From a virus, in IMG/VR virus record IMGVR_UViG_3300042896_000357, positions 1 to 36,875 of that record: 36,875 bases of DNA. One strand, written 5' to 3'. The notes under the pieces were generated by a model that saw nothing but the letters and a program-made list of their open reading frames with translations, was not told where the DNA came from and made no database searches. Positions 1,611 through 26,051 of this stretch are shown piece after piece. How positions within the stretch are numbered: position 1 is the first letter of the stretch; the number at the start of each line of letters is the position of its first letter. Both the position numbers and the translations under genes were made by a program.

Positions 1611-1872
1611 TAAAGCAACAAAAGCAAACAAAATAAACAAAGCTTTGTTTCTCTGTAAGCCCTTTAAAATATAGCCTTAAACCCTCCTATAAACAAAGTA
1701 AACAATAATACTACAATAATATATAAGTAATAAATATTATTATACATATACGCACGTGGGGCACTGTGGCGTTTTGCCCCGATGGACTTTTAAACTACCT
1801 TTGTTTATTGTTGCTTTTGTTTACTTTTCAGCTTAACCCCAATAAAATAAGGCTTTCACGGAGAAACAAAGA
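1611..1872. promoter_or_regulatory. Control region A: arrayed TTTGTTTA(C/T) boxes flanking an AT-rich core and a hairpin
   Basis: This is non-coding. Boxes of the form (G/A)TAAACAA(A/T)G or its reverse complement occur at about 1634-1642, 1690-1698, 1698-1706, 1799-1808 and 1816-1824, with weaker ones at 1642-1650 and 1863-1871. Bases 1635-1650 form the perfect palindrome AAACAAAGCTTTGTTT. Left-hand boxes read GTAAACAA and right-hand boxes read TTGTTTAC, so the array is roughly symmetric about a 50-nt AT-rich core (about 1705-1750) and a hairpin (1757-1781). The same layout recurs at 15472-15632. It may be a replication origin, an operator cluster or both. Position between the late terminator and the first early gene fits either. 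Confidence 0.7.
1757..1781. other. Conserved stem-loop in control region A
   Basis: GGGGCA (1758-1763) pairs with TGCCCC (1775-1780) around the 11-nt loop CTGTGGCGTTT; a T-G pair can extend the stem. The equivalent hairpin at 15552-15572 keeps 9 of 11 loop bases (CTGTGGAATTT) but has a different, still complementary stem (GGAAC/GTTCC). Preserved pairing despite changed bases suggests the folded form is what matters, as RNA or as extruded DNA. Confidence 0.65.
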
Positions 1873-1895
1873 AATAATATAAAATTTTACGTAAA

Positions 1896-1931
1896 ATTAT
1901 TTTTTATATCGAATAATCATTTGTAGATTTG
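1896..1931 (+). promoter_or_regulatory. Early-class promoter for the XRE regulator gene
   Basis: The upstream element is ATTATTTTTTATATC (1896-1910), then exactly 13 nt, then TAGATTTG (1924-1931), matching the Bacteroidota -7 consensus TAnnTTTG. The same upstream element and 13-nt spacer recur at 4513, 7648, 14250 and 26017. The start codon lies 17 nt after the -7 box, so the leader is very short. Confidence 0.8.
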
Positions 1932-1947
1932 TCAAAAATAATCAGAT

Positions 1948-2349
1948 ATGCAAACAATCGACCTACAAAAAATAATTGACGTTAAGGGGATATTAATTAA
2001 AGACCTCGGAAAAGTTCTTTTCCCTAAAACGAAATACCCCTATTTGGCTCTTCGCCGAATTATGAGAGGTGAAGCCTTTCTAAGTTCTGAACAAGTTGTG
2101 CGACTTTCCGAATACACCAATATCCCGGTTAACTTTCTTTTCAATTTTGGTAAGTGGGAATTGTCTCTTAGCGAGAAATGCATGAAAGCTTTATCGGGTG
2201 AAATAACTGCAGAGCTTAATACAGAGACTTGGGAAACACAACTTTTCAAAAATGGTGAAAAGCACCTTGATCCTTTCAAGTTCGCACACGGGGTGGCAAT
2301 AAGCACTTACCTAGAACACGTAACGAATTTAATCCTTAAAAATAAATAA
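1948..2349 (+). CDS. XRE/Cro-like helix-turn-helix regulator
   Basis: The protein has 133 residues. Residues about 8-70 look like a lambda-repressor-type HTH domain: a first helix (IDVKGILIKDLGKVLF), a recognition-helix region (YPYLALRRIMRGE), then SSEQVVRLSEYTNIPVNFLF, the usual last helix of XRE domains. The C-terminal half is unrecognised and lacks an S24 peptidase, so it is not a LexA/CI-type self-cleaving repressor. It is the first gene of the early operon and lies directly downstream of control region A, which makes it the prime candidate to bind the TTTGTTTAC boxes and control the early-to-late switch (inference). Without an integrase in the genome, a lysogeny role is unlikely. Confidence 0.7.
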   Translation: MQTIDLQKIIDVKGILIKDLGKVLFPKTKYPYLALRRIMRGEAFLSSEQVVRLSEYTNIPVNFLFNFGKWELSLSEKCMKALSGEITAELNTETWETQLFKNGEKHLDPFKFAHGVAISTYLEHVTNLILKNK

Positions 2350-2366
2350 TTTAAAATCAATCTATC

Positions 2367-2864
2367 ATGAAAATTAAAATTGAAGTAGACGGCTTAACAT
2401 TAGAGCACGCAACCGAGTTAACAAAATTCTTAAGTTCTTTAAAGCCTTTAGAGGGTATCGAACAAGATACAAGAACGGTAGTTTTTAATAAGGAAGAGGC
2501 GCCAAGTATCGAAGAGAAACCAAAGCAAACACGTAAAAAAGCTGAGAAAGTAGAAACTTTAAGCCCCGAAGATTTTGTAAAAGAGAGCGCTAATGCTTTT
2601 AAAAACGCTATCGAGGAAGTGAAAACTGAAATTCAAGACGTAAAAGAGTCTATAGAAGCCCAAAAAGTAGAAGCTATCGAGGTCGTAGAACCGGAAACAG
2701 TTAGTGCACCTACTTTGATGCAAATACGCTCTTTAGTGGCCCAAAAAGCAGGAGAGCACAAAGACGCCATAAAAGCAAAGTTAGTTGAGCTAGGGGCGCA
2801 AAACGTATCGACGTTAGACGCTAAACACTTCCAAACTATTTTTGATTTCCTTAACGAGTTGTAA
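2367..2864 (+). CDS. Acidic coiled-coil protein with Rrp5-like C-terminal domain
   Basis: The protein has 165 residues. Residues 1-50 form a small beta/alpha start (MKIKIEVDGLTLEHATEL). Residues about 50-115 are highly charged, Glu/Lys-rich and predicted helical. The last 50 residues (LMQIRSLVAQKAGEHKDAI, then KLVELGAQNVSTLD) resemble the short C-terminal helical domain often annotated as rRNA biogenesis protein Rrp5-like in phages. That label says little about function. The stop overlaps the next start (TAATG), coupling it to the DUF2800 nuclease gene. In comparable phages a protein of this kind sits beside DUF2800/DUF2815 genes, suggesting a DNA-metabolism accessory role. Confidence 0.55.
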   Translation: MKIKIEVDGLTLEHATELTKFLSSLKPLEGIEQDTRTVVFNKEEAPSIEEKPKQTRKKAEKVETLSPEDFVKESANAFKNAIEEVKTEIQDVKESIEAQKVEAIEVVEPETVSAPTLMQIRSLVAQKAGEHKDAIKAKLVELGAQNVSTLDAKHFQTIFDFLNEL

Positions 2865-4321
2865 TGAACTCCGCAACTAAAAACATTCTTACCGCCTCGC
2901 TACGAGTTTACGAGGCGGACAAGGACAAAGAAGTAAATATTCTTTGGGTAGAACGACAAAAGCAAAAACTATCAGATTCCGGCTGGATAAACGTACGTAA
3001 TAGCTCAGACGCTAACCACTACCAAGCTTATAAGATTTTCCTAAGAATCAAAAAACCAAAAACGAAAATGAGTTATTCCGAGAATCAATTAGAGCAAGTA
3101 CTTGGGGGTTACGCCTCTGACAAAACTGACAAAACTGATAAAAAAGAAGTAAACCACAGCGAAAGAGCGCACGCCCTTTTAAGTGCTTCGGGCGCGAGCC
3201 GTTGGATCAATTGCACGCCAAGCCCACGACTGGAGGAGGGCTTCGCAAACGAGAGCAGTAGCTTTGCCGAGGAGGGTACTTTGGCGCACGAGTTCGCAGA
3301 GCTTAACTTAAGGGCAGCTTTAAACGAAATGACTTTATTTGATTGGCAAGACTTTCAAGCGGCTTTAAAAGTTAGTGAATACTATTCATCGGAAATGGAG
3401 GATTTTGTACAGGTACACATAGATTACGTGCTTGAGCAATTCACGGAGGCAAAACGCAAAACCCCCGACGCTATTTTGCTAATCGAGCAAAAAGTCGACA
3501 TTACGCACTTAATCGAGGAGGGCTTCGGAACCTGTGACGTTATTATAATTGCGGACGGTACGCTCGAAGTAATTGACTTGAAGTACGGCTTAGGCGTTCG
3601 AGTAAGTGCCGACGACAACTCACAATTGAAGTTGTACGGCTCCGGAGCTTTAGAGGCTTACGACCTTATGTACGACATTCATACCGTTAAGTTGACAATT
3701 ACGCAGCCCCGCATGGACTCGATAAGCTCTTGGGAAATATCCGCAGAGGATTTGCGTCAATGGGGCGAAGAAGTTGTAAAGCCAAAAGCGCAAATAGCTT
3801 ATGCAGGCGAAGGTGAACAAGTAACGGGCGAATGGTGCAAGTTTTGCAAAGCCTCACCACGATGCAAGGCACAAGCAGCTAAAGCACAAGAGCTTGCACA
3901 GTATGATTTTGCAGACCCTTTTCTGTTAGAAGACTACCAACTTGTTAACATCTACGAGAAAATACCACAAGTTACAAAGTGGCTAAGTGCCGTTACTGAT
4001 TACATTTTCAAAGAAGCTATGAACGGTAAGAAGTGGGAAGGCTACAAGCTTGTTGACGGTCAAAACCGCAGAGGGTGGACGGATGAAAGCGAAGTAGCAA
4101 CGATACTTTTTGCAAATGATTTTGAGGAGCACCAATTTAGCAACTCAAAAATAAAAGGCATAGGAGACATTGAAAAGTTAGTAGGTAAGAAAGAGTTCCC
4201 GGCGTTATTAGGCGACGTTGTAGCCTTTAAAAAGACCTCACCAAGCTTAGTGCCAGAGAGCGACAAACGCCCAGCGTTAGGCATCGACCAAGCAAAAGCC
4301 GACTTTGCAGACGATTTATAA
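2864..4321 (+). CDS. DUF2800 Cas4/RecB-like PD-(D/E)XK nuclease
   Basis: The protein has 485 residues. The DUF2800 body starts near residue 97 (HSERAHALLSASGASRW). Nuclease residues visible are H142 (EEGTLAHEFAEL), D225 (GFGTCDVIII) and D238-x-K240 (LEVIDLKYG). C117 together with C325, C328 and C334 (EWCKFCKASPRC) fits the four-cysteine iron-sulfur cluster of Cas4/AddB-type nucleases. The family is usually encoded next to DUF2815 and a family A polymerase in phages, as here, and probably resects DNA ends for recombination-linked replication. The first roughly 65 residues lie outside the usual domain. The ATG at 2864 is favoured because it overlaps the previous stop, but the Met at 3068 is a possible alternative start. 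Confidence 0.85.
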   Translation: MNSATKNILTASLRVYEADKDKEVNILWVERQKQKLSDSGWINVRNSSDANHYQAYKIFLRIKKPKTKMSYSENQLEQVLGGYASDKTDKTDKKEVNHSERAHALLSASGASRWINCTPSPRLEEGFANESSSFAEEGTLAHEFAELNLRAALNEMTLFDWQDFQAALKVSEYYSSEMEDFVQVHIDYVLEQFTEAKRKTPDAILLIEQKVDITHLIEEGFGTCDVIIIADGTLEVIDLKYGLGVRVSADDNSQLKLYGSGALEAYDLMYDIHTVKLTITQPRMDSISSWEISAEDLRQWGEEVVKPKAQIAYAGEGEQVTGEWCKFCKASPRCKAQAAKAQELAQYDFADPFLLEDYQLVNIYEKIPQVTKWLSAVTDYIFKEAMNGKKWEGYKLVDGQNRRGWTDESEVATILFANDFEEHQFSNSKIKGIGDIEKLVGKKEFPALLGDVVAFKKTSPSLVPESDKRPALGIDQAKADFADDL

Positions 4322-4339
4322 ACTTTAAAATAAAAACAA

Positions 4340-4504
4340 ATGAAAGCGATAGCGATAGCGATAGCGTCGATAGTTAATGTATTAGCTATATTTATACTCC
4401 TTGAAGGAGTAAGCAAAACCATATCCGTTTTAATAATCATAGCGGTTGCTTTGGCAAACTATTTCGACGGAAGAGTAAGAGCGGAAAAGAATTTAAAAAA
4501 ATAA
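4340..4504 (+). CDS. Small membrane protein, two predicted helices (54 aa)
   Basis: An ATG at 4340 opens a 54-codon frame. Residues about 3-21 and 27-41 are hydrophobic, with a short charged turn (EGVSK) between them, and the C-terminus is basic (RVRAEKNLKK). The 5' end holds the tandem hexamer GCGATA three times, then GCGTCGATA, encoding Ala-Ile repeats. It lies 18 nt after the DUF2800 gene and before an early-class promoter. The function is unknown; early phage membrane microproteins sometimes act in superinfection exclusion or host takeover, but nothing here proves it. Confidence 0.5.
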   Translation: MKAIAIAIASIVNVLAIFILLEGVSKTISVLIIIAVALANYFDGRVRAEKNLKK

Positions 4505-4512
4505 GTATAAAA

Positions 4513-4547
4513 ATATTTTTTATATCTAAATAAGTTTATTACTTTTG
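4513..4547 (+). promoter_or_regulatory. Early-class promoter for the ssDNA-binding protein gene
   Basis: ATATTTTTTATATC (4513-4526), 13 nt, TACTTTTG (4540-4547). A single GTAAACAAT box (4548-4556) directly follows the -7 element, where it could act as an operator. The leader to the ATG at 4619 is about 65 nt, the longest of this class. Confidence 0.8.
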
Positions 4548-4618
4548 GTAAACAATCCTAAGCAAGATTTTAAAAGGCTTAAAAAACGAAAAATGTTTAA
4601 ATATTAAAAATTGAAAAA

Positions 4619-5164
4619 ATGGCTACAACGAGAGTTACCACAAAGAAAGTAAGATTTAGTTATGTTCACGTATTCGAACCAACAGCGATGAACGAGGGAG
4701 ACCCAAAGAAGTACTCAAGTGCTATCTTAATCCCAAAGAATGACAAAGTAACAGTAAAAGCAATCCAAGACGCTATCCAGTTAGCTCTTAACGAGGGGAA
4801 GAGTAAACACTTCGGGGGCAAAATACCAGGTAAATGGTCCAGCCCTTTGCGTGATGGCGACGAGGAAAAACCAGACGACGAGGTTTACGCAGGGCACTAT
4901 TTTTTAAACGCAAAGAGCAACAAACGCCCAGTTATTTTAGGCCCAGACAAAGAGCTTTTAGTCGACAAAGACGACTTTTATTCCGGATGTTATGGTAGAG
5001 CAGTTCTTAACTTTTACGCATACGGTAACAACTTACCAAGTAAAGGGGTTGCAGTTGGTTTCGAGTCCGCAATGAAGCTGGAAGACGGTGACAATTTAGG
5101 CGGTGGCGGTTTGAGCTATGCTGAAATAGTTGACGCCTACGACGACCAAGACGATTTAATGTAA
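4619..5164 (+). CDS. DUF2815 ssDNA-binding protein
   Basis: The protein has 181 residues and matches the DUF2815 phage family, OB-fold-like proteins related to T7 gp2.5. Diagnostic stretches are KVRFSYVHVFEP near the N-terminus, KKYSSAILIPKND, a central HYFLNAKSNKRPVI, and FYSGCYGRAVLNFYAYGN followed by KGVAVGFESAMKLEDG. The C-terminus is acidic (DAYDDQDDLM), like the protein-interaction tail of single-stranded DNA-binding proteins. It would coat ssDNA during replication and contact polymerase and primase-helicase. It has its own promoter, suggesting a need for high expression, and sits between the DUF2800 nuclease and the polymerase, the common arrangement of this cassette. Confidence 0.88.
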   Translation: MATTRVTTKKVRFSYVHVFEPTAMNEGDPKKYSSAILIPKNDKVTVKAIQDAIQLALNEGKSKHFGGKIPGKWSSPLRDGDEEKPDDEVYAGHYFLNAKSNKRPVILGPDKELLVDKDDFYSGCYGRAVLNFYAYGNNLPSKGVAVGFESAMKLEDGDNLGGGGLSYAEIVDAYDDQDDLM

Positions 5165-5383
5165 GATTACAAGAAACTAAAGAGGCTCGATACCTCTTTA
5201 GTTTACAAAGTCGAAAGACTAAATTCTTGAAAAGACGTAAACGCACCGAGTTAAGTCGACCCACTTACGTATTTTCAAGTGCGCCACCCCGATAGTTTGG
5301 CGAAGTAGGAAACTATCAGATATAAAATTTTTTGGTTTAAAAAAGTTAATCTTAGACCCGTGTAACTGGCGTTAAAGTTAAAA

Positions 5384-5440
5384 GAGGGTGTTGGCTGAAT
5401 GGCTAGGCTTTGTATACGGGTTCGACCCCCGTACACTCTC
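5384..5440 (+). ncRNA. tRNA-like element lacking an anticodon arm
   Basis: GAGGGTGT (5384-5391) pairs with ACACTCTC (5433-5440), an 8-bp acceptor-like stem with one G-U pair. A canonical T-arm follows: ACGGG, loop TTCGACC (fits TTCRANY), CCCGT (5416-5432). Between them is a D-arm-like stem GCT/GGC whose loop contains GG (5394-5408). Only seven bases (TTTGTAT) stand where the anticodon arm should be, so it cannot be a normal tRNA. GGCTTTG (5406-5412) is also complementary to CAAAGCC (5441-5447), which would make a pseudoknot. No CCA is encoded. Confidence 0.4.
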
Positions 5441-5574
5441 CAAAGCCGTCGCAGAAAGGGTGTGTTTGCGGTACCGAATAGGTATAGTCACCCACAAATA
5501 GCAAGGAGGATAAAAGCTAAAAGACCTCACAGCGGTGTATGTATAATTAAAAGTAAACTCGTCAGATGGAAGGC

Positions 5575-5662
5575 GATAAGTCCGATGTTAGGAGTGCGCA
5601 CTCCGAAGCCTTTTAGGCAGAAACTTCGATAGCTTGTTTGGGTTCGACTCCCGGAGTTTATC
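5575..5662 (+). ncRNA. Second tRNA-like element with unusual arms
   Basis: GATAAGT (5575-5581) pairs with GTTTATC (5656-5662), including two G-U pairs. A T-arm-like hairpin has stem TTGGG/CCCGG and loop TTCGACT (5638-5654). Inside are a hairpin GGAGT-GCGC-ACTCC (5591-5604) and a stem GAAG/CTTC (5605-5608/5624-5627), giving a four-way junction of 88 nt. No standard D-arm or 7-nt anticodon loop can be drawn and no CCA is encoded. It ends 13 nt before the polymerase start codon, so it might also affect polymerase translation or be a processing site. Confidence 0.35.
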
Positions 5663-5675
5663 AAATCTATCTATC

Positions 5676-7631
5676 ATGCCAAAAAAATTGCACCTTGATT
5701 TGGAAACCTATTCCAGTGTCGACATAACGACGTGTGGCTCTTACAAATACTTTGAGAGCCTTGACTTTGAAATTCTTATGATTGCGTACGCCTTCGACGA
5801 CCAGCCGATACAAATAATTGATTTATCGAACGGCGTAGATATTACGTTTTTATCAGAGGCTTTATTAAACCCCGATATTGAATTACATAGCCATAACGCG
5901 AACTTTGAGCGCAACGCTTTCCGTACTTACGGAATTGAAACTCCTATTGAAAGATGGCACTGTAGCGCAGTAAAAGCAGGTTATTGCGGTTTGCCTCTTT
6001 CTCTTGATGGGGCTTCTAAAGCTTTGCAATTAGGCGACAAAGGAAAGAGCGCCGAAGGTAAAGCTCTTATTAAATATTTTAGTTGCCCCGTAAAGCCAAC
6101 TAAGGTAAACGGTATGCGTTCTCGGAACTACCCACACCACGACCCCGAGAAGTGGGGACGCTTCAAAGATTATTGTAAGCAAGACGTTGAAGCCGAGAGA
6201 GAAATAGGGCGTAAACTACATGCGTATGAAATCCCAGAGAGCGAAAGACTTAATTACTTCTTAGATCAAAAGATAAACGACAAAGGCATTTTGATTGATT
6301 TAGTAATGGCTCAAAATGCTTACGACATCGACAACCGATTTAGCGCAGAGCTTTACACCCAAGTAAAAGAACTCACAGGACTTGACAACCCAAACAGCCC
6401 ATCGCAATTAAAAAATTGGTTGCAGGATAAAACAGGGTTCGAAATTCCTTCTTTGGCTAAAGGTTTGCTCCCGGACTTAATCAAAGATGCAAAGAGCCCC
6501 GAAGTATCGAAGGTTATAGGATTGCGTCAAATGATGAGCAAAACATCAACAAAAAAGTATTTAGCAATGCTGAATTGTGCGTGCAACGACAACAGGGCTC
6601 ACGGATTGTTTCAGTTCTACGGGGCAAACCGTACAGGGCGTTGGGCGGGACGTCTAATCCAAATGCAGAACTTACCACAAAACCACCTTGACGACTTGGA
6701 AGAGGCTCGAGCGTGCATAGCTTCGGGAGACTACGACCTCACAACTCTTTTATATGACGACATTCCCTCAATGCTTTCACAGTTAATCCGTACGGCGTTC
6801 ATAGCAAAGTATAAGCATGTATTCGGGATAATGGACTTTTCTTCTATCGAGGCCGCAGTGCTATCTTGGTTAAGTAATGAAAAATGGAGGCTAAAGGTTT
6901 TTGCTTCGCACGGTAAAATATACGAGGCTTCGGCTTCAAAAATGTTTAACGTGCCAATTGAGGCAGTTACTAAAGGATCAGACCTTAGGGCTAAAGGTAA
7001 AGTAGCGGAGCTGGCTTTAGGTTACCAGGGCGCAATCGGCGCGCTTAAAACTATGGGCGGTGAAAAGATGGGGCTTAGTGATCCCGAAATGGAAACAATC
7101 GTAAAACGTTGGCGTATTGCCAATCCTGCTATTGTAGCTTTGTGGGCAGACATGGAGAGTTGCGCAATGCGAGCGATACAATATAAAAAGAAAGTCGTAT
7201 CTATTCACAAAGGTTTAATATTCGATTGTGACGACATGGCTTTGACTATCGAGTTGCCTTCGGGAAGAAAACTATTTTATCAGTCGCCGAGCTTCACAGA
7301 GAACCAATGGGGGCGGAAGTCAATTCGATATAAAGGTATGGACCAAACAACTAAGCAATGGACTTACGTAGACACCTACGGCGGAAAGCTAACGGAGAAC
7401 GTAGTACAGGCGATAGCAAGGGATTTATTAGCAGACGCTATGCGTAATTTAAACGATGCGAATTTTGATATAGTAATGACGGTACATGATGAAATAGTTT
7501 GCGAGCTAAGAGAAGACACCGCGGAGGAACGACTAAAAGAGATGCAGACTTTAATGTGCGTTCACGCCCCGTGGTCGGAAGGAATACCGCTAAGAGCTGA
7601 GGGCGAGCTAACTCCTTTTTATAAAAAATAA
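5676..7631 (+). CDS. Family A DNA polymerase with 3'-5' exonuclease domain
   Basis: The protein has 651 residues. The start at 5676 (MPKKLHLDLETYS) is chosen because the frame upstream runs through the tRNA-like RNA. Exonuclease motifs: D8-x-E10 (DLETYS), HNANFERNAF (Exo II) and YCKQDVEAE (Exo III, YxxxD). Polymerase motifs: A at D387 (DFSSIEAAVL), B at R438-K442 (RAKGKVAELALGY) and C HDE at 604-606. In motif A the usual Arg of SxIEAR is Ala394, an unusual change. No 5'-3' exonuclease domain is present, as usual for phage replicative Pol I-like enzymes. It replicates the phage genome together with the DUF2815 protein and the primase-helicase encoded nearby. Confidence 0.95.
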   Translation: MPKKLHLDLETYSSVDITTCGSYKYFESLDFEILMIAYAFDDQPIQIIDLSNGVDITFLSEALLNPDIELHSHNANFERNAFRTYGIETPIERWHCSAVKAGYCGLPLSLDGASKALQLGDKGKSAEGKALIKYFSCPVKPTKVNGMRSRNYPHHDPEKWGRFKDYCKQDVEAEREIGRKLHAYEIPESERLNYFLDQKINDKGILIDLVMAQNAYDIDNRFSAELYTQVKELTGLDNPNSPSQLKNWLQDKTGFEIPSLAKGLLPDLIKDAKSPEVSKVIGLRQMMSKTSTKKYLAMLNCACNDNRAHGLFQFYGANRTGRWAGRLIQMQNLPQNHLDDLEEARACIASGDYDLTTLLYDDIPSMLSQLIRTAFIAKYKHVFGIMDFSSIEAAVLSWLSNEKWRLKVFASHGKIYEASASKMFNVPIEAVTKGSDLRAKGKVAELALGYQGAIGALKTMGGEKMGLSDPEMETIVKRWRIANPAIVALWADMESCAMRAIQYKKKVVSIHKGLIFDCDDMALTIELPSGRKLFYQSPSFTENQWGRKSIRYKGMDQTTKQWTYVDTYGGKLTENVVQAIARDLLADAMRNLNDANFDIVMTVHDEIVCELREDTAEERLKEMQTLMCVHAPWSEGIPLRAEGELTPFYKK

Positions 7632-7647
7632 AAAACTTTATATAAAA

Positions 7648-7682
7648 ATATTTTTTATATCAAAATAAGTTTCTTAGTTTTG
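7648..7682 (+). promoter_or_regulatory. Early-class promoter downstream of the polymerase gene
   Basis: ATATTTTTTATATC (7648-7661), 13 nt, TAGTTTTG (7675-7682). It lies 16 nt after the polymerase stop and 21 nt before the next ATG (7704). Spacing and sequence match the other early-class promoters. Confidence 0.8.
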
Positions 7683-7703
7683 ACCCAACAAATAAAAGAA
7701 ATC

Positions 7704-7817
7704 ATGAGACAAGCTATAATCGACAAGATGAACGAAGGGCAAGAGGCAGACACCCCGCCGTACACTTGGGAGACAATACCGAACGGATTAAAAGAATTTT
7801 GGAGCAAAAACCTATAA
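7704..7817 (+). CDS. Small protein (37 aa), first gene after an early promoter
   Basis: An ATG at 7704 opens a 37-codon frame (MRQAIIDKMNEGQEADTPPY) ending at TAA 7815-7817. It is positioned correctly behind the promoter at 7648-7682. The next coding frame (7822-8088) is in the +1 frame relative to this one, is open back to 7792 and has no ATG. This peptide may therefore be a stand-alone protein whose translation is coupled to the next gene, or the N-terminal part of a product joined by a +1 frameshift at CTA TAA. No domain is recognised. Confidence 0.5.
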   Translation: MRQAIIDKMNEGQEADTPPYTWETIPNGLKEFWSKNL

Positions 7818-7821
7818 GACC

Positions 7822-8088
7822 ATTAAAATAATAAAATTAGACGATCAATTTACTATCCAAGTAAAAACAGCAAGTTACCTACTTATTAAAACGGGAGAAC
7901 CTAAAAGAGTCATTGACACCGATACGCTCGAAGAGAAGACGGTAATACCTAAAGAGGTTTGGTACTACATAAGCATGGGGCAAGCCTTACGCAATTACGC
8001 CGACAAGGCTTTAGGGCAAAGCGAAGACTTAAAAGACGTGCTTAAAAGGCTAATCGCCGTTGAAGCAATAATCAAAAATATTAAATAG
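7822..8088 (+). CDS. Unknown protein (about 88 aa) with no obvious start codon
   Basis: The frame reads IKIIKLDDQFTIQVKTASYL and on to VEAIIKNIK before TAG, has protein-like composition and fills the gap between two genes. It contains no ATG, GTG or TTG before about 7972. The start given is an ATT at 7822, the most likely rare start by position. The alternative is fusion to the 37-residue gene upstream by a +1 shift at 7812-7815, or a single-base error there. The predicted fold is alpha/beta with a helical C-terminal half. No family is recognised. Confidence 0.5.
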   Translation: MKIIKLDDQFTIQVKTASYLLIKTGEPKRVIDTDTLEEKTVIPKEVWYYISMGQALRNYADKALGQSEDLKDVLKRLIAVEAIIKNIK

Positions 8089-8090
8089 CT

Positions 8091-8588
8091 ATGGCTGAAA
8101 ATGAAATTTGGAAACCTATTTTTGGTTACGAAGGCTTTTATGAAGTTTCGAATTTAGGGAACGTAAAGAGCTTAGAACGTAAAGTTAAAAATCCTCTTGC
8201 TTTTTCTGGATATAGAATTGTTAAAAGTAGAGCTTTAGCCTTAACAATTTCAAACGGTTATTTTGAAGTAAGCCTTTATAAAGAAAATAAAAGGAAGCAT
8301 TTTAGAGTACACCAACTTGTAGCTTTTAATTTTATGGATCACAAGCCTTGCGGATTTGAAATAGTTGTTAACCACAAGGACTTTAATAAAACTAACAACC
8401 GCCTCGATAATTTAGAGCTCGTAACAAACAGAGAAAACAGCAATAAAAAGCACTTGGCTAGTACGAGTAAATTTACGGGAGTTAGCAAGCAAAGGAATAA
8501 GTGGCGGGCTTCGATAAGTTTAGGATCTTTTGATACAGAACAAGAAGCCTCCGAGGCATACCAAAAAGCTTTAAAAAATATATCATGA
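8091..8588 (+). CDS. HNH homing-type endonuclease (NUMOD4, HNH, AP2-like)
   Basis: The protein has 165 residues and three modules: NUMOD4 at about 5-30 (WKPIFGYEGFYEVSNLGNVKS), HNH at about 70-117 (H74 in RVHQLVA, N94-H95-KDFNKTNN, then DNLELVTNREN) and a C-terminal AP2-like DNA-binding domain at about 126-162 (FTGVSKQRNKWRASI, GSFDTEQEASEAY). Such free-standing HNH enzymes nick or cut phage DNA and often spread as mobile genes. It is wedged between the start-less small gene and the primase-helicase, overlapping the latter by 4 nt (ATGA). That tight fit means it has been adapted to the operon, or that it replaced sequence there. Confidence 0.88.
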   Translation: MAENEIWKPIFGYEGFYEVSNLGNVKSLERKVKNPLAFSGYRIVKSRALALTISNGYFEVSLYKENKRKHFRVHQLVAFNFMDHKPCGFEIVVNHKDFNKTNNRLDNLELVTNRENSNKKHLASTSKFTGVSKQRNKWRASISLGSFDTEQEASEAYQKALKNIS

Positions 8589-10969
8589 AATACGACGGTA
8601 AAATAAATGTGGCTTTTGGGCTTAGTGCTAAGTCTAAAATTTGGAAAAACAAAACTTTGCTCTTTTCTGAGTTTGTAAACAAGCTTAGGCAAGAGCACAA
8701 AACTAATGAAACCTATAAAGAGTTTTTAGCTGCTAGCAAAGAAGAACAGGGGAAAATAAAAGATTGTGGTGGGTACGTAGGCGGGTATTTAAGAGCGGGT
8801 AAAAGAAGCCCCGAAAACATCGTGCATAGACAAATAGCGACTCTCGATATAGATTTTGCGCATTTGGATTTTTGGGAAGATTTCACAATGCAATTTGATT
8901 GCGCCGCAATTTTACACGGTACGCATAAACATTCTGAAATATCGCCTAGATACCGTTTAGTAATACCTTTGTCCCGTGAAGCTTCACCCGATGAGTATGT
9001 GGCGGTAAGTAGGCAAATTGCAGGCTTGCTCGGAATAGAGTTATTTGACGGGACAACTTTTGAAACCAACCGCTTAATGTTTTGGCCAAGTACCCCAATA
9101 GATCAAGACTATTATTTTAGAGAACAGGACGGCCCTTGGATTGATGTAGATGAGATATTAAGTTCATACATCGATTGGAAAGACACAAGCCTTTGGCCTA
9201 CTGCGGATAAAACTGCAAAGCTTATAGGAGAACAAGTTAAAAGACAGGAAGACCCCGAAGTTAAAAAGGGTATCGTAGGGGCCTTTTGCCGATCATACAC
9301 AATTACCGAAGCTATAGAAGCTTTTTTGCATGAGCAATATGTCCCGACAGATAAAGACGATAGGTACACATACACTAAAGGTAGCACGGCGGCAGGCTTA
9401 ATTATTTACGAGGATAAATTTGCGTATTCACATCACGGCACGGATCCGACCTCTGGTAAAACATCAAACGCTTTTGACCTTGTTAGACTTCACCTTTACG
9501 GACATTTGGACGGTGACAGCTACACAACACAAAAGCCAAAGAGCTACGTAGCGATGGAGGATTTAGCCAGACAAGACCCCGAAGTTAAAAAGACTTTAGC
9601 CTCTGAGAGTGTGGCAAATGCTAAGTACGACTTTGCAGAGGACTTAGAAGACGAAGAGCTTGGAAACGTTGAAGGCGACCAAGATAGTATCGAATGGATG
9701 GGTGAACTCGAAGCAGATAGCAAAGGGAAGTATCTCTCAAGTGCTACGAACATTAATACTATTTTAGCAAACGACCACAGACTTAAGCAGACGTTTAAGC
9801 AAAATGATTTCGACGGTAAAAGGTATGTGTTTCGTTCTTTACCATGGCGCAAGATCACAACGCCCGAACCAATTCGAGACGTAGACTATGCAGGAATTAG
9901 GAATTACATTGAGAGCATTTACGGAATTACCGGAGTAATGAAAATAGAGGACAGTATTGCTTTAGAGTTCGAGAAACAAAGCTTTCACCCAATTAAAGAT
10001 TATCTTAAAGCTTTGAAGTGGGACGGGGTTAACCGGTTAGATAATTTGCTTATTGATTACTTTGGTGCAGAGGATAACGCTTATAGCCGTGAAGCAATAA
10101 GAAAAACGTTATGCGCTGCAGTAGCAAGAGTATTTAATCCTGGCGTTAAGTTCGACATGGTTTTAGTATTAGTTTCAGACCAAGGAGCCTATAAGTCGAC
10201 ATTTATTAAAACGTTAGGTAAACAATGGTACAGTGATTCATTTATGACCGTACACGGTAAAGAGGCGTTCGAGCAAATACAGGGCGTTTGGCTTATGGAA
10301 ATGGCAGAGCTTGCAGGCTTAAGAAAAGCAGACGTCGAAGCGGTAAAGCATTTCATTACAAAGCAAGAGGACTCTTTTCGTGCAGCATACGGACGGGTGA
10401 CGATGAACCATAAAAGACAATGCGTATTTTTTGCCACAACCAACAAAAGAGACTTCTTAAATGACCCCTCAGGTAATAGGCGTTTCAATCCTATAGCAGT
10501 ACGCTCGCCGAAAATAACCAAACACGTTATTAACGACTTGCCGGGTGAAGTTGACCAAATTTGGGCGGAGGCGATGCAACTTTATAAGAAGGGGGAAAAC
10601 TTATACTTAAGCAAAGAAGCCGATCAATTAGCTAAACAAGAGCAAAGCAAGCACTCTGAGACTGACGAACGTACGGGGCTTGTAGAGAGTTATCTCGATG
10701 CTCGACTACCTAAAGATTGGAGCGATAAAGATATATTCGAACGTCGCCAATATTTAGACGTAGGCAAGACAGAGAACGGAGAACTTCGAAACTTCGTTTG
10801 CATGGCAGAGATTTGGTGCGAGTGTTTAGGTAAAGCAAAAGAGGACATGAGCCGATACAACACTCGAGAGATTAACGATATATTAAAAAGCCTTGACGGC
10901 TGGGAGCATCATACAACGACAAAGAATTTTGGATATTATGGCAAACAAAAATATTATTCAAGGAAATGA
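8585..10969 (+). CDS. Primase-helicase (AEP-like primase plus VirE/SF3-type helicase)
   Basis: The protein has 794 residues. N-terminal primase-polymerase region: catalytic-type acidic pair D88-x-D90 (LDIDFA) and a THKH motif at 113-116 followed by PRYRLVIPLS, as in archaeo-eukaryotic primase-like phage proteins. The C-terminal region from about 470 is a VirE-family (pfam05272-type) helicase: P-loop at 531-539, which reads SDQGAYKST rather than GxxGxGKST; Walker B-like WLMEMAEL; and an arginine-finger region ending SGNRRFNPI. It would unwind the replication fork and make primers for the family A polymerase. The deviating P-loop keeps Lys537 and Ser538, so activity is still expected. Confidence 0.88.
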   Translation: MKYDGKINVAFGLSAKSKIWKNKTLLFSEFVNKLRQEHKTNETYKEFLAASKEEQGKIKDCGGYVGGYLRAGKRSPENIVHRQIATLDIDFAHLDFWEDFTMQFDCAAILHGTHKHSEISPRYRLVIPLSREASPDEYVAVSRQIAGLLGIELFDGTTFETNRLMFWPSTPIDQDYYFREQDGPWIDVDEILSSYIDWKDTSLWPTADKTAKLIGEQVKRQEDPEVKKGIVGAFCRSYTITEAIEAFLHEQYVPTDKDDRYTYTKGSTAAGLIIYEDKFAYSHHGTDPTSGKTSNAFDLVRLHLYGHLDGDSYTTQKPKSYVAMEDLARQDPEVKKTLASESVANAKYDFAEDLEDEELGNVEGDQDSIEWMGELEADSKGKYLSSATNINTILANDHRLKQTFKQNDFDGKRYVFRSLPWRKITTPEPIRDVDYAGIRNYIESIYGITGVMKIEDSIALEFEKQSFHPIKDYLKALKWDGVNRLDNLLIDYFGAEDNAYSREAIRKTLCAAVARVFNPGVKFDMVLVLVSDQGAYKSTFIKTLGKQWYSDSFMTVHGKEAFEQIQGVWLMEMAELAGLRKADVEAVKHFITKQEDSFRAAYGRVTMNHKRQCVFFATTNKRDFLNDPSGNRRFNPIAVRSPKITKHVINDLPGEVDQIWAEAMQLYKKGENLYLSKEADQLAKQEQSKHSETDERTGLVESYLDARLPKDWSDKDIFERRQYLDVGKTENGELRNFVCMAEIWCECLGKAKEDMSRYNTREINDILKSLDGWEHHTTTKNFGYYGKQKYYSRK

Positions 10970-11127
10970 AGTATAACAGTATAGAACGTGAAAAAGTAGT
11001 TAAGAGAGGGTTTAAGCTACACCACGAAAGCACAAAGAAACGCTTAGCCCTAAGAGAAAAATTCCCCGTCGAAGTTGAAATAAAAGACGGGTTTTATATT
11101 ATTGAATCGCAAATGAATAAAGAATGA
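10966..11127 (+). CDS. Small basic protein (53 aa)
   Basis: An ATG at 10966 overlaps the primase-helicase stop (ATGA). The 53-residue product (MKYNSIEREKVVKRGFKLHH) is Lys/Arg-rich in its first 35 residues and ends with a beta-like FPVEVEIKDGFYIIES. Its stop overlaps the next start. The unbroken chain of 4-nt overlaps supports a real, co-translated gene. The function is unknown; the basic charge suggests nucleic-acid contact. Confidence 0.55.
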   Translation: MKYNSIEREKVVKRGFKLHHESTKKRLALREKFPVEVEIKDGFYIIESQMNKE

Positions 11128-11435
11128 TAACAATTGAAAACATAAGAGCGTGCATGATTAAATATCCTCGATGCATGTTATGGAATAAGAACCTTAGCAA
11201 ATGGGGTGATTCGGATAAAAAGAGGTTTGGTAAAATGCTGAAAGACGAACCAGAGAAAAGAAGCCCTAGACAAAAATTAGTATCGAGAAGTATAGGGCGT
11301 AAAGGTATTCGTATCTTGCGAGTTTCAGACGGTAAAGAGTACGATACTATGACCGCCTGCAGGATTGATAATAATTTACACTGTGGGTTAATGTTATCAA
11401 AATTAAAATTAGAAAACGAATTTAAAAGAATATAA
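11124..11435 (+). CDS. Unknown basic protein, possible NUMOD1/HTH-like C-terminus
   Basis: The protein has 103 residues and is basic. The C-terminal part (IRILRVSDGKEYDTMTAC) resembles the opening of NUMOD1-like DNA-binding repeats, in which a short beta-hairpin (ending DGKxYxSxxxA) leads into a helix-turn-helix. Residues 1-55 are unrecognised and Lys/Arg-rich. It could be a small DNA-binding protein or a remnant of a homing endonuclease. It begins within the stop of the preceding gene and is followed after 2 nt by the next. Confidence 0.45.
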   Translation: MITIENIRACMIKYPRCMLWNKNLSKWGDSDKKRFGKMLKDEPEKRSPRQKLVSRSIGRKGIRILRVSDGKEYDTMTACRIDNNLHCGLMLSKLKLENEFKRI

Positions 11436-11437
11436 CC

Positions 11438-11872
11438 ATGACACAAATAGAACAAGAGTTTGAGCAAAGTATCGAGATAGCACTATCGAAAGCTTTAAAG
11501 TATCACCCGAAAACAGAAAATACCTTACTAAAATTAAAGGAGCTGCTTATTGTTAAAGGTAAAGAGTATAGGCGAAATAATGACCCCTATCATAATTTTA
11601 ACGAAGGCGCAAAGCTTTTAAACGTTAGAGCTATGCACGTACTAAACTTCTTTAGGTTAAAGCATTTAATCAGTATTGCGGACATACTCAAAGATTTAGA
11701 GCAAGGCTTAAAAGTCAGCGAGGCTCAAGTCAATGAAAAGTATAATGATGTATTAGTGTATACTTTAATTGAACTGGCTTACGCAGAGAACCAAAAAGAA
11801 GCAAGCTTTCAGCACTACCAGACTTTCGAAACTTACTTATTAGCTAAACATAAAATGCTTAAAAGACTATGA
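11438..11872 (+). CDS. Nmad1/DUF1599-like (MazG-like) helical protein
   Basis: The protein has 144 residues, mostly helical. The pattern KGKEYRRNNDPYHNFNEGAK, then VLNFFRLKHLISI and, after a gap, YNDVLVYTLIELAYAE, resembles phage proteins annotated as nucleotide modification associated domain 1 or DUF1599. These share a fold logic with MazG-type all-alpha NTP pyrophosphatases: an E/D-bearing helix pair and a terminal DxxxYxLL-like helix. It may adjust nucleotide pools or be linked to modified DNA. The gene overlaps the VRR-NUC gene by 4 nt. The family assignment is by eye and moderate. Confidence 0.55.
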   Translation: MTQIEQEFEQSIEIALSKALKYHPKTENTLLKLKELLIVKGKEYRRNNDPYHNFNEGAKLLNVRAMHVLNFFRLKHLISIADILKDLEQGLKVSEAQVNEKYNDVLVYTLIELAYAENQKEASFQHYQTFETYLLAKHKMLKRL

Positions 11873-12150
11873 TTGAATCAGAGAAAGTACTGGAAAAGTA
11901 TTTAGTAGCAGAGGTTAAAAAGTTAGGAGGCTGGGCGGTTAAACTGCTAGCGGGATTAGTCACAGGACTACCCGACCGCCTTATATTATTACCGGGTGGC
12001 GTGGTTGCTTTTGTGGAAGTGAAGACAACAGGCAAGAAAGCAAGTGCGATACAATTAGTGCGGCATAAACAGTTGATGCAGTTAGGCTTTCGAGTTGAGG
12101 TCGTGGATAGCAAAGAGGGGATTAATAATTTTATAAATAGTTACAGATGA
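11869..12150 (+). CDS. VRR-NUC domain nuclease
   Basis: The protein has 93 residues and is a minimal VRR-NUC (PD-(D/E)XK) nuclease. Visible catalytic set: D36 (GLPDRLILL), E50-x-K52 (FVEVKTTGKKAS) and Q62. Stand-alone VRR-NUC proteins of this size are typical in phages and usually lie directly before an SNF2-like helicase. They are thought to cleave branched DNA such as Holliday junctions during recombination or before packaging. Here a ParB-like gene comes between it and the helicase, with 4-nt overlaps. Confidence 0.9.
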   Translation: MIESEKVLEKYLVAEVKKLGGWAVKLLAGLVTGLPDRLILLPGGVVAFVEVKTTGKKASAIQLVRHKQLMQLGFRVEVVDSKEGINNFINSYR

Positions 12151-12869
12151 AAATAGAAAGCACAAAAGATTATAGTTTGTTCAATATGTTGGTGGGTAAT
12201 CGAGTTTTGAACCAAAAGAAAATTGATACGATAGTTAAAGACGTAGAAGCGGGTTTAAACATGCTCCCCTTTTACCCCGTGGTTGTCTCTAAAAATGCAG
12301 ACAACACATATAGTATTATTGATGGGCAACACCGTTTTGAGGTGAGCCGAAAGACAGATAGCCCTATTTATTTTATCGTTTGTAATTCTTTATCTTTGAG
12401 CCAAATTGCGCAATTAAATTCAAGGGGGCAAAAATGGAGTATTAATGATTTTCTAAATTGCTACGCCAAAATAGGGCAAGAGGACTATGTTAAATTGAAA
12501 GAGTTAGCACTTGCGTATAAAATTCCAGTTTCGACAATAGGTAGCTTTTTGATGGATAATAAACCTAAGTCAGATTTCAAAGAGCAATTTGAAAGCGGGG
12601 CTTTTAAAATAAATTTCTTAGCTGAAACAGAAAACCTTTTCGCTTTAACTGATAGGCTTTTTGGTCAATACCGATTTTCAAAAGATAGATATCTTTTCGG
12701 AGCGATTCAAAAAATACAAGAGAAAGGTATTTGCGATTTTGATAAACTTGCTTTGAAAGTTCAACAAGCCCCCATGATGATGGATAAGCAGAGCGATGTT
12801 AAGAATTATATCTATAATATCGAACGTCTTTATAATTTCAAAAACTCGAAACGAGAAGCAATAATATAG
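12147..12869 (+). CDS. ParB/Srx-like domain protein (DGQHR motif)
   Basis: The protein has 240 residues. The N-terminal part contains the ParB/sulfiredoxin-like signature: YPVVVSKN, then IIDGQHRFEVSRKT with D59-G60-Q61-H62-R63. This fold binds and hydrolyses nucleotides (CTP in ParB) or nicks DNA in some phage and plasmid members. The remainder is helical and lacks a clear HTH, so it is not a classical centromere-binding ParB, and no ParA or parS-like cluster is seen. It overlaps the VRR-NUC gene and precedes the helicase by 3 nt, pointing to a role in DNA transactions. The exact activity is unknown. Confidence 0.75.
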   Translation: MKIESTKDYSLFNMLVGNRVLNQKKIDTIVKDVEAGLNMLPFYPVVVSKNADNTYSIIDGQHRFEVSRKTDSPIYFIVCNSLSLSQIAQLNSRGQKWSINDFLNCYAKIGQEDYVKLKELALAYKIPVSTIGSFLMDNKPKSDFKEQFESGAFKINFLAETENLFALTDRLFGQYRFSKDRYLFGAIQKIQEKGICDFDKLALKVQQAPMMMDKQSDVKNYIYNIERLYNFKNSKREAII

Positions 12870-12872
12870 GGT

Positions 12873-14241
12873 ATGCTAAACGAAACTAACTTACACGGCT
12901 ATCAACACACAGGAGTTGACCACATAATCACAAATACACATTCGGCCCTTCTCCTCGAGATGGGCCTTGGGTAAAACTACAACAACGTTGACAGCTATTA
13001 ACCGTTTGATCTACGACCACCTCGATATTAGTAAAGTACTTGTTATCGCCCCTCGACGTGTGGCTGAGTCCGTATGGGCGCAAGAGGTTGAGAAGTGGGA
13101 GCATTTGAAGCACTTAAAAGTAAGCAAGGTTATAGGTGACGCTAAGAAGCGAAAAGCAGCCTTAGCAATCAAAGCAGACATTTACACCATAGGGCGTGAC
13201 AACGTGGCTTGGTTATGTGGTTTATATGGTGGCGGCATGTTGCCGTTTGATATGCTTGTTATCGATGAGAGCAGTTCTTTTAAGAACCACGCCTCAATGA
13301 GGTTCAAAGCTCTTAAGCGTGTACAGCCCTCTTTTAGTCGTGTTGTGCTGCTTACTGGAACGCCTGCACCAAATAGCCTTATAGACCTATGGGCTCAAAT
13401 CTACCTACTCGATAGAGGCGATAGGCTTGGTAAGACAATAACTTTTTACCGAGATAACTACTTTCGTAAAAGTTACAACGGTTTTGGCTATGACCCACAA
13501 ATCGACTCCGACGAGCGCATACACAATAAGATAAAAGATATTTGTATTTCGATGAAGTCAGAGGACTACCTAGACTTACCGGAACGCATAGATAACTTCA
13601 TAGCTATTGACTTCCCGCCCGAAGTTAAGAAGCGTTACGAGATATTCGAACGTGACATGGTTCTCGAAATGTTTGAAGACGTGGAAGAGATAACCGCTAT
13701 GAACGCTGCAGGTTTATCGAATAAACTTTTACAGTTTGCGGGTGGAGCCGTTTACGATGCTGAGAAGAACTGGCACGAAGTCCACGACTTGAAGCTCGAC
13801 GCCGCGGAGGATATTATCGAGAGCGCCAACGGCCAACCCGTTTTAATCGCCTACACGTACAAGCATGAATTGGAAAGGCTTTTAGTTCGCTTAAAGAAAT
13901 ACAAGCCCGTGAAGCTTACAACGGACGCCGATATACTTAAATGGAACAAAGGCGAGATACAAGTAATGCTTGCACACCCAGCAAGTGCGGGACACGGTTT
14001 GAACCTACAAGCGGGAGGCTCTATAGTTCTTTGGTTTAGTTTGAATTGGAGCTTGGAGCTTTACCAGCAATTTAACGCCCGTTTACACCGCCAAGGACAA
14101 AAAAGTAGTGTAGTTATTAATCATTTGATTGCGCAAGGCACAGAGGATGAAACGGTAGTTAGAACGCTCGACGGGAAGCGGGACACGCAAGAGCTTTTGA
14201 TGCAAGCCGTAAAAGCCAAAATAGCAAAACATTTAAAATAA
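12873..14241 (+). CDS. SNF2-like DEAD/DEAH helicase, interrupted by a +1 frameshift at Walker A
   Basis: The frame from ATG 12873 reads LHGYQHTGVDHIITN, then ALLLEMGLG, and stops at TAA 12972-12974. Skipping one base there (GGG T AAA ACT) continues as KTTTTLTAI to 14241. The joined 455-residue product has a perfect GLGKT (31-35), DESSSFK (D131-E132), TGTP (161-164) and ARLHRQGQ (about 402-409), all SNF2/SF2 motifs. Without the shift the downstream part could only start at TTG 12967, inside Walker A. Explanations are programmed +1 frameshifting (Gly-tRNA slipping from GGG to GGU with a stop in the A site), a real mutation or an assembly error. This helicase normally accompanies DUF2800, DUF2815, PolA and VRR-NUC genes in phages. 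Confidence 0.85.
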
Positions 14242-14249
14242 ACATATAA

Positions 14250-14284
14250 ATATTTTTTATATAGAAATAAGTTTTATATCTTTG
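14250..14284 (+). promoter_or_regulatory. Early-class promoter for the small-gene cluster
   Basis: ATATTTTTTATATA (14250-14263), 13 nt, TATCTTTG (14277-14284), 25 nt before ATG 14310. Same geometry as the other early-class promoters. It drives a run of five small genes ending at the terminator 15293-15319. Confidence 0.8.
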
Positions 14285-14309
14285 AAATCTAATTTAAAAC
14301 ATAAAGAAA

Positions 14310-14552
14310 ATGCAAAAGCTTATTGATATAAACGGGGTCGAAATAAAAGAGGGGCAAAGAATAAAAAGTCAGCAACCCTCAGGCGGAATATTTGCCCCAG
14401 CTCCTGCGGTTATAGGCAGAGTTGTAATAGAACATTCTTTAGCTGGAGACGACTTACTACTTCGATACCAACCTTCGGGCTATAAAAACCATTTTTCTTA
14501 TATACTTCTTAGAGGTAAAATAAATGAAGTTTTAGAAGATGAAACAGTTTAA
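14310..14552 (+). CDS. Unknown small beta-rich protein (80 aa)
   Basis: The protein has 80 residues starting MQKLIDINGVEIKEGQRI, a common opening of small SH3-like or YopX-like barrel proteins in phages, followed by PSGGIFAPAPAVIGRVV and LLLRYQPSG. It is predicted mostly beta. It is the first gene after the promoter at 14250-14284, and its 3' end overlaps the next gene by 14 nt. The function is unknown; early genes in this position are often host-takeover or anti-defence proteins, but no motif supports a specific claim. Confidence 0.6.
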   Translation: MQKLIDINGVEIKEGQRIKSQQPSGGIFAPAPAVIGRVVIEHSLAGDDLLLRYQPSGYKNHFSYILLRGKINEVLEDETV

Positions 14553-14691
14553 GTTCTTTTACTGGCGACGTTACGGCGATAACGAAAAAGATTGCGACAC
14601 GATCGTAATCGAGGCACTGAGCGAAGCAAGCGCAAGGCTGATACTTAAACAATGTATACCAAGCGCATACGATATTAACCTATTAAAATAA
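14539..14691 (+). CDS. Unknown small protein (50 aa)
   Basis: A 50-codon frame from ATG 14539 (MKQFKFFYWRRYGDNEKDCD) ends at TAA 14689-14691. It overlaps the previous gene by 14 nt and is followed after 7 nt by the next. Composition is that of a folded alpha/beta miniprotein: the aromatic N-terminal strand and TIVIEALSEASARLIL resemble small phage proteins in which a strand is followed by an amphipathic helix. The function is unknown. Confidence 0.55.
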   Translation: MKQFKFFYWRRYGDNEKDCDTIVIEALSEASARLILKQCIPSAYDINLLK

Positions 14692-14698
14692 AAATATC

Positions 14699-14908
14699 AT
14701 GAAAACAAGAAGAGAGCATTTAAGCGTTTTACCGAAAGAGGTATTAGAAGAAATCCACGAAGAAATTAAGCTAGGGGTTTTACCAGAAATCGAAATAATG
14801 GGCCATTTTTGCGATAAAGAAGAAGCGATAAAAGGGTTATTTGTATTCAGCGAAACAGAAAAAGGTCACACCTATTGGTGGATTATTTACGAAAAATATA
14901 TCAAATAA
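14699..14908 (+). CDS. Unknown acidic small protein (69 aa)
   Basis: The protein has 69 residues starting MKTRREHLSVLPKEVLEEIH. The first half is helical and Glu-rich; the second contains FCDKEEAIKGLFVFSETEKG and ends with an aromatic strand (YWWIIYEKYIK). It has no membrane segment and no recognised family. It belongs to the small-gene run behind the promoter at 14250 and is separated from the next ATG by a single base. Confidence 0.55.
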   Translation: MKTRREHLSVLPKEVLEEIHEEIKLGVLPEIEIMGHFCDKEEAIKGLFVFSETEKGHTYWWIIYEKYIK

Positions 14909-14909
14909 G

Positions 14910-15026
14910 ATGAAAAAAGAGACAAACGTAGAAAGGTTTTATGCTTGGATGTGTAAAATTAACAGTATCCATTTAGCCGATAACGCAAAAATGGCAGCAG
15001 CATTTCACAAAATAGCAACTTCTTAA
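14910..15026 (+). CDS. Unknown small protein (38 aa)
   Basis: The start at 14910 (MKKETNVERFYAWMCKINS) is preferred over an in-frame upstream ATG at 14841, because that one would overlap most of the 3' end of the preceding gene. The 38-residue product is helical and weakly basic. It ends at TAA 15024-15026, one base before the next ATG. No function can be assigned. Confidence 0.5.
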   Translation: MKKETNVERFYAWMCKINSIHLADNAKMAAAFHKIATS

Positions 15027-15027
15027 G

Positions 15028-15201
15028 ATGAGAGCTGGGTATAAAGTTATTAACGACGTAGAAAAACTGGATAGATTTATATTAGTTTCAAACTACGGTA
15101 GTATTAATGAGGTAATAAATTATGGTTGCGAGGAACTACAAGAACTAAATTATCTTAAAGATGAGAGCGATATTGGCTTTTGGCGTATAAAAAGAAAGTA
15201 A
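15028..15201 (+). CDS. Unknown small protein (57 aa), last early gene
   Basis: ATG 15028 opens a 57-codon frame (MRAGYKVINDVEKLDRFILV) ending FWRIKRK. Its stop codon (15199-15201) lies inside the first GTAAACAAT box of control region B. It is an alpha/beta protein with a basic tail and no recognised family. It is the last gene before the terminator at 15293. Confidence 0.55.
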   Translation: MRAGYKVINDVEKLDRFILVSNYGSINEVINYGCEELQELNYLKDESDIGFWRIKRK

Positions 15202-15292
15202 ACAATACAAAGCAAAGTAAACAATCTTTGTTTACTTGTGAAGCACTGCGGTTATTGACTTAAACGCAAATGTAAACAAAGTAAACAATACT

Positions 15293-15319
15293 AAGCCCAA
15301 ACTTATATTTGGGCTTTTT
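15293..15319 (+). terminator. Rho-independent terminator ending the early operon
   Basis: AAGCCCAAA (15293-15301) pairs with TTTGGGCTT (15308-15316) around loop CTTATA, followed by further Ts (to 15319). It directly follows two tandem GTAAACAA boxes. Confidence 0.85.
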
Positions 15320-15551
15320 GCATTTTTACACGACAAAGCAATAAAAGTACTAAAAACGGCCCTTGTCTATAAATACTTACAAATTAGCTTAAAATGGATA
15401 CAAAGGAAACAAAAAGCAACAATCTTTGTTTACGCAAAAGTACCAATGTTTATAGGCTCTAAGGTACTATTGTAAACAATAAACAATAATATTATTATAA
15501 ATATTATAAAGTAAATAATATTATATATAACGCGTAATATAATACGCGTAA

Positions 15552-15572
15552 GGAACCTGTGGAATTTGTTCC
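15552..15572. other. Conserved stem-loop in control region B
   Basis: GGAAC (15552-15556) pairs with GTTCC (15568-15572); the loop is CTGTGGAATTT, 9 of 11 bases identical to the loop of the region A hairpin, while the stem differs but still pairs. Confidence 0.65.
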
Positions 15573-15746
15573 CCCGTCCCTTCAAAGTCAAGCTTGTTTA
15601 TTGTTTCTTTGTTTACTTTTTGGCTTAAACCCAATGAGAGTGCGGGTTAAGAGCGTAAACAAAGAATTTATTTTGTTTCTTGGCTATTTTCGTGATTAGT
15701 TAATAAGCTGATTTGTAGATAGTTAAAGATAAACAGTGCAAATTTC

Positions 15747-15788
15747 TTTGTTTATTTGATTGAAATGTAAAATAGTTTTGTAGTTTTG
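15747..15788 (+). promoter_or_regulatory. Late-class promoter(s) for the terminase operon
   Basis: TTTGTTTAT (15747-15755), 17 nt, TAGTTTTG (15773-15780). A second TAGTTTTG follows at once (15781-15788), with a TTTG at 15755-15758 at the equivalent distance, giving two overlapping promoters 8 bp apart. The ATG is at 15793, so transcripts would be leaderless or nearly so. The -33 box is the same word as the arrayed boxes of control regions A and B. Confidence 0.7.
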
Positions 15789-25964: not shown

Positions 25965-25996
25965 AAACCCGTTATTAATTTAGCGGGTTTTTTTTT
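25965..25996 (+). terminator. Terminator 1 flanking the moron (31-bp direct repeat with 26817-26847)
   Basis: AAACCCGTTA (25965-25974) pairs with TAGCGGGTTT (25981-25990) around TTAATT, followed by six more Ts. 25965-25995 is identical to 26817-26847. It ends the first late operon after the tape measure gene. Confidence 0.9.
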
Positions 25997-26016
25997 GTTT
26001 AAAAATACAGGTAAAA

Positions 26017-26051
26017 ATATTTTTTATATAGAAAAAAGTTTTATATCTTTG
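26017..26051 (+). promoter_or_regulatory. Early-class promoter of the moron
   Basis: ATATTTTTTATATA (26017-26030), 13 nt, TATCTTTG (26044-26051), 17 nt before ATG 26069. An early-class promoter here means the two moron genes can be expressed independently of the surrounding late operons. Confidence 0.8.

Follow-up and report, generated by a model that had tools for sequence, protein, structure and literature searches.

PICI origins are described as an AT-rich region with an iteron set on either side, located directly 3' of the initiator gene (PMC6092414), and the Rep protein of SaPIs recognises its iterons via a C-terminal domain (PMC7581432). The intergenic origin of SCCmec cch2 is a putative origin just downstream of the initiator helicase, with iterons that are likewise bound by a C-terminal domain (PMC7581432). 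SPP1 has two separate sites, oriL and oriR, which depend on one phage initiator, and oriR has been proposed to serve the later, concatemeric stage (PMC5615212). Our literature search, which covered openly licensed papers, returned no paper describing a vapE-adjacent origin in phages.

The window, by which we mean the whole 36,875-nt stretch analysed here, is a virus record with an identical 127-nt direct terminal repeat (1-127 = 36749-36875), consistent with a circular or circularly permuted genome, and nearly all of its genes run rightward. Two elements in the same orientation flank the replication genes: A is preceded by a terminator-like stem near 1580-1606 and followed by the early operon; B comes after that operon ends and before the terminase genes. 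Judging from sequence comparisons, A and B are likely to be two copies of a phage replication origin, with a VapE-like primase-helicase as the probable initiator. An origin pair was one of several options left standing by the original prediction; it is now the best-supported one, and relatives keep the pair. By position, the features are:

1633..1640, plus strand: outlying box ATAAACAA, left of A
1689..1705, plus strand: left iteron set of A, ATAAACAA-A-GTAAACAA, inward-facing
1706..1800, no strand: AT-rich core of A, holding ATACGCACG and a putative hairpin
1758..1780, plus strand: hairpin of A, GGGGCA-CTGTGGCGTTT-TGCCCC (stem 1758-1763/1775-1780), folding not conserved
1801..1824, minus strand: right iteron set of A, TTGTTTAT...TTGTTTAC
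1831..1843, plus strand: tail of A, GCTTAACCCCAAT, common to B
1948..2349, plus strand: XRE-like gene, just downstream of A
2864-4321, rightward: DUF2800 nuclease-like gene
4619-5164, rightward: Enc34-type SSB gene
5634..7631, plus strand: family A DNA polymerase (PolA)
8091-8588: NUMOD4/HNH (weak AP2) homing-endonuclease-like gene, between polA and vapE
8585..10969, plus strand: VapE-like primase-helicase, candidate initiator
15198..15288, no strand: left sub-array of B, with boxes at 15198+, 15217+, 15228-, 15272+ and 15281+
15295..15319, plus strand: terminator-like stem GCCCAAACTTATATTTGGGC with a T-run after it, where the early region ends (read directly)
15426..15433, minus strand: single box of B
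15472..15486, plus strand: left iteron set of B, GTAAACAATAAACAA, inward-facing
15487..15593, no strand: AT-rich core of B, with ACGCGTAATATAATACGCGT
15552..15572, plus strand: hairpin of B, GGAAC-CTGTGGAATTT-GTTCC (stem 15552-15556/15568-15572), folding not conserved
15594..15616, minus strand: right iteron set of B, TTGTTTATTGTTTCTTTGTTTAC
15623..15635, plus strand: tail of B, GCTTAAACCCAAT, common to A
15655..15662, plus strand: outlying box of B
15748..15755, minus strand: outlying box of B, ATAAACAA, ahead of the start of the small terminase candidate
15793..16287, plus strand: small terminase subunit candidate (by position)
16274..17596, plus strand: terminase large subunit

Downstream of vapE, a VRR-NUC-like gene, an SNF2 helicase gene, the small terminase candidate, the large terminase and the structural genes follow in that order. 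Two other repeats occur in the window. Five diverged copies of a 53-nt element (1879-1931, 4495-4547, 7630-7682, 14232-14284 and 25999-26051) lie in or next to intergenic gaps and have in common a stretch around ATTTTTTATAT and a TTTG end about 20-30 nt later; they resemble a family of phage promoters carrying a Bacteroidota-type -7 element. The other repeat, of 79 nt, has copies at 25965-26043 and 26817-26895 that are 75% identical and both hold the terminator-like stem AAACCCGTTATTAATTTAGCGGGTTT.

A and B are homologous, aligning within the window at 72% identity over 154 nt (E=2.3e-10), with a similarity of z=18.5 against 500 dinucleotide shuffles; the cores with their boxes removed still reach z=5.9 against shuffles. 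The box GTAAACAA occurs 15 times in the window against 3.3 expected, a 4.6-fold excess, and a count of 15 was seen in 0/100 shuffles. Both elements have two iteron sets around an AT-rich region, as PICI/SaPI-type origins do. The coordinates, box order, AT-rich cores and GCTTAA(A/C)CCCAAT tails that had been described for A and B were all confirmed on the sequence; the region first given for B, 15472-15632, stands but is too small, since boxes run from 15198 to 15755, with five more leftward to 15198 and others at 15426, 15655 and 15748. Across the array cores of 27 elements, ACGC/GCGT words were seen 48 times against 17 expected and in 19 of the elements; this excess is a lead only, because the elements are not independent and the words are absent in some clades. 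GC skew, proposed earlier as a check for an origin signal, was uninformative; it shows no consistent break at A or B, and at third codon positions it varies with no break at either.

Each core also contains a hairpin, and the stems that had been described are present as letters in both; both can be drawn, and 9 of the 11 loop bases are common to A and B. From these features it had been argued that the stems changed in a compensatory manner under selection on the folded form, and the source of a small RNA had been one of the options. A reading in which A and B specify a structured RNA, or need a selected hairpin whose loop is fixed, is in our view very improbable. The compensatory change is unsupported, as it was drawn from one A-versus-B comparison: of the five stem pairs compared across eight B homologues, none was compensated and three were broken in at least one sequence, and in L041, the nearest relative with both regions, the A stem changes uncompensated from GGGGCA to GGAGCA. 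On the same counts, a conserved hairpin or structured RNA element was rejected as a class for A and B. Selection on the folded form finds no more favour, with no covariation and a stability as DNA no better than that of shuffles (A z=-0.48, B z=-0.06), nor does a small-RNA source, given in addition that an Rfam search for a structured RNA in A and B returned no match. The hairpin was not found in more distant A/B pairs.

Relatives were gathered by TerL, DUF2800 and PolA scans, with whole contigs and Croceibacter phage P2559Y. The original prediction had named relatives lacking the pair as the finding that would count against it; the pair is present in nine genomes (the window, G011, G014, G020, G021, G031, G016, G017 and P2559Y), and the order A, XRE-like gene, vapE, B is the same in all nine. 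A BLASTN search of B against cultured phages gave no match, and the arrangement in P2559Y was seen by direct inspection. In Elizabethkingia phage TCUEAP1 (L164, W03), a single TGTCTCAA array lies inside a long inverted repeat at 24888-25220 of the record, about 1.3 kb upstream of an XRE-like gene; a second array was looked for there and none was found.

Arrays of the same type, built from other iteron words, occur in more distant phages that share the PolA–VapE replication module, at a different place. In a survey set of 28 non-redundant vapE loci, with arrays detected as exact 8-mers, a significant array was present in 18 loci and in 0/140 Markov shuffles, and 13 of these 18 arrays have their start in the interval from -97 to +263 nt relative to the vapE stop; at several loci, exact 8-mers reveal no array. 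Distant relatives whose VapE is 41-51% identical have one array each, at the vapE 3' end, and its word differs by lineage (GTATACAC in G024, AGCATACA in G025, GTGTTCCA in G026, CCGGCAAC in G029, TGTAAACA in G032, GTAAACA in G028, and others), and the succession of inward set, AT-rich core and outward set is clear in several of the vapE-adjacent arrays. One relative, from the bacterial genome scan, is a Staphylococcus prophage (Staphylococcus americanisciuri, L167 12400-12740), in which a AGTAACAC array around an AT-rich core lies directly 3' of vapE. The window has no array at the vapE 3' end and has arrays at 1.7 kb and 15.5 kb instead; throughout its clade the vapE 3' end is without an array, which sits twice, ahead of the early operon and ahead of the terminase. 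In G030 (L159 1596-1899), a AAAGCCTA array lies far upstream of vapE and not at its 3' end. G006 (L126 4494-4751), whose large terminase is 60% identical, encodes a helicase only 26% identical over the helicase domain, with nine AGTAAACA boxes, a GTAAACA array, from 2 nt past its stop; this connects arrays of this kind with replication helicases as a class, and it suggests that GTAAACA can arise as a word more than once.

The position of these arrays bears on a reading of A and B as operator arrays through which the XRE-like regulator (1948-2349) would control the early and late operons. The XRE-like gene adjoins A in all nine pair genomes, a homologue was found in 10 of 45 relatives with all 8 other pair genomes among them, and A and B each stand ahead of a transcription unit. 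Nevertheless, we regard this reading as unlikely: relatives without a detected XRE homologue have arrays of this type at the vapE 3' end, G022 has an array in the A position and no detectable XRE homologue, an operator has no need of a long AT-rich core between inverted array halves, and the boxes are mostly clear of promoters. The arrays at vapE in relatives without an XRE homologue, together with that of G022, disfavour the XRE-like protein as the main binder, and it is not the best candidate; since it accompanies the A/B arrangement, it is possibly an additional binder.

Iteron words change jointly in A and B within a genome: GTAAACAAT is the word of both copies in most A/B genomes, G016 has GAAACAAT in both arrays, and G017 has GGAACAAT and ACACAAT mixed in both. 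A and B of G016 have an identity of 0.89 to each other, and no A-A or B-B comparison of G016 with another genome exceeds 0.72; the corresponding values are 0.83 against at most 0.73 for P2559Y and, by a narrow margin, 0.75-0.77 against at most 0.75 with other clades for the window/G011 clade. In G017 the A-B identity of 0.58 is not above between-genome values, and the box words agree nonetheless. In a tree of the cores, A and B group together with support of 1.00 in G016, 0.98 in P2559Y, 0.98 in window/G011 and 0.78 in G017, while the copies of the G014 clade and G031 are not clearly grouped by genome, so that cores group by genome or clade in 4 of 6 lineages. By these comparisons, A and B appear to be kept matched to each other in most of the related phages examined.

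Two further explanations can be weighed against this pattern. As cos or pac sites are often found just ahead of terminase genes, B, which directly precedes them, could be a packaging site with boxes for the small terminase and A a decoy or relic. The deposited record of P2559Y (L125, position 1 / 43153) starts inside the core of its own B array, which may reflect either an arbitrary choice or a physical end. This proposal seems quite improbable, however, given that (i) no homologue of the window's small terminase candidate was found in P2559Y, which has the same boxes, (ii) the array is at vapE in distant relatives, and (iii) A and B are equally well conserved and their iteron words vary in step. 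Alternatively, A and B could be direct repeats kept for recombination, by which the early module is excised or amplified; they have the same orientation, flank the replication genes and are alike within genomes. We find this hardly probable at all: initiator binding accounts for the array structure and for the single-copy, vapE-linked form elsewhere, no excised form was seen, and no recombinase was found among the ORFs scanned.

The VapE-like primase-helicase, a cognate Pri-Rep-type helicase encoded in cis, is probably the initiator at A and B, judging from position, homology and correlation. It matches PriRep1 (PDB 7pds, 'PriRep1 with dsDNA') in sequence at E=6e-72, and its predicted fold matches 7pds at E=2e-33 with a TM score of 0.80 on the target over 448 columns, covering the full solved PriRep1 length. 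The model ends in a C-terminal helix-helix-strand-strand unit, predicted to be winged-helix-like, at about residues 737-793. Similarity of iterons follows identity of the VapE C-terminus (Mantel r=0.66, P=0.0002), a correlation confounded by shared descent and based on hand-chosen iteron words; the rest of VapE gives 0.63, and the partial values are 0.31 for the C-terminus versus 0.13 for the rest, confounded by shared descent in the same way.

Taken with the PICI/SaPI descriptions, the PriRep1 match and the winged-helix-like C-terminus lead us to infer that VapE initiates replication by binding the boxes of A and B and opening the core. The GTAAACAA(T) boxes would act as iterons, with one inward-facing set on each side of an AT-rich core, and this core would melt; the C-terminal winged-helix-like domain of VapE (8585-10969) would bind the iterons, load the hexameric helicase where the core has opened and provide primers for the phage PolA. 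The origin would be single-copy 3' of vapE in distant relatives, and in the window's clade it would have been lost from there and placed twice, as A and B, with the copies kept alike. Melting, the activity of either copy as an origin and any sharing of tasks by the two are, likewise, what we infer. Two origins in one unit are unusual, and one of the copies may thus be inactive. A fuller scenario, possible but on balance doubtful, is that the clade, whose known hosts are Bacteroidota, moved a PICI-type origin off the initiator gene and duplicated it, with both copies active, matched by gene conversion and dividing the labour, e.g., with theta replication starting early at A, and B serving late concatemer synthesis or initiation linked to packaging.

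Compared with the described systems, the locus resembles PICI/SaPI origins (rep or pri-rep, then ori) in its two iteron sets flanking an AT-rich region (PMC6092414, PMC7581432), in a primase-helicase initiator candidate related to PriRep1 and in the array 3' of the initiator gene in distant relatives; it differs in that the genomes are complete phages with PolA, terminase and structural genes, and in that the window's clade has the probable origin in two copies, neither of them at the 3' end of vapE. An array adjoining the initiator gene, the position that defines PICI origins, was looked for in the window and not found; we therefore do not class A and B as PICI origins, and they most likely work like them. 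SPP1 is, by analogy, the nearest functional precedent for two sites with one initiator; here each genome has the same iteron word in both sites, whereas the SPP1 protein G38P is a replisome organiser with separate helicase and loader, and the SPP1 sites are likened to A and B by description. The SCCmec cch2 origin agrees with the distant relatives in its position just 3' of an initiator helicase and, by prediction, in C-terminal iteron binding, and differs in having only three short iterons (AAGTG), a single site and a helicase of another family. What is new here is the relocation and duplication of the probable origin, copies that stay matched and a PICI-type layout in complete phages.

To conclude, the reading of A and B as paired origins is well supported at the level of sequence. 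PolA–VapE–SNF2 is a very common phage replication module for which our searches found no described origin, and the finding indicates its initiator-iteron pair. A layout that has been called unique to phage satellites (PMC6092414) is present in complete phages, which bears on the source of satellite origins. Iteron words and initiators vary together across phages, so that initiator-iteron specificity can be tested by swapping, and the paired version would offer a natural case of two origins co-evolving in one small genome.
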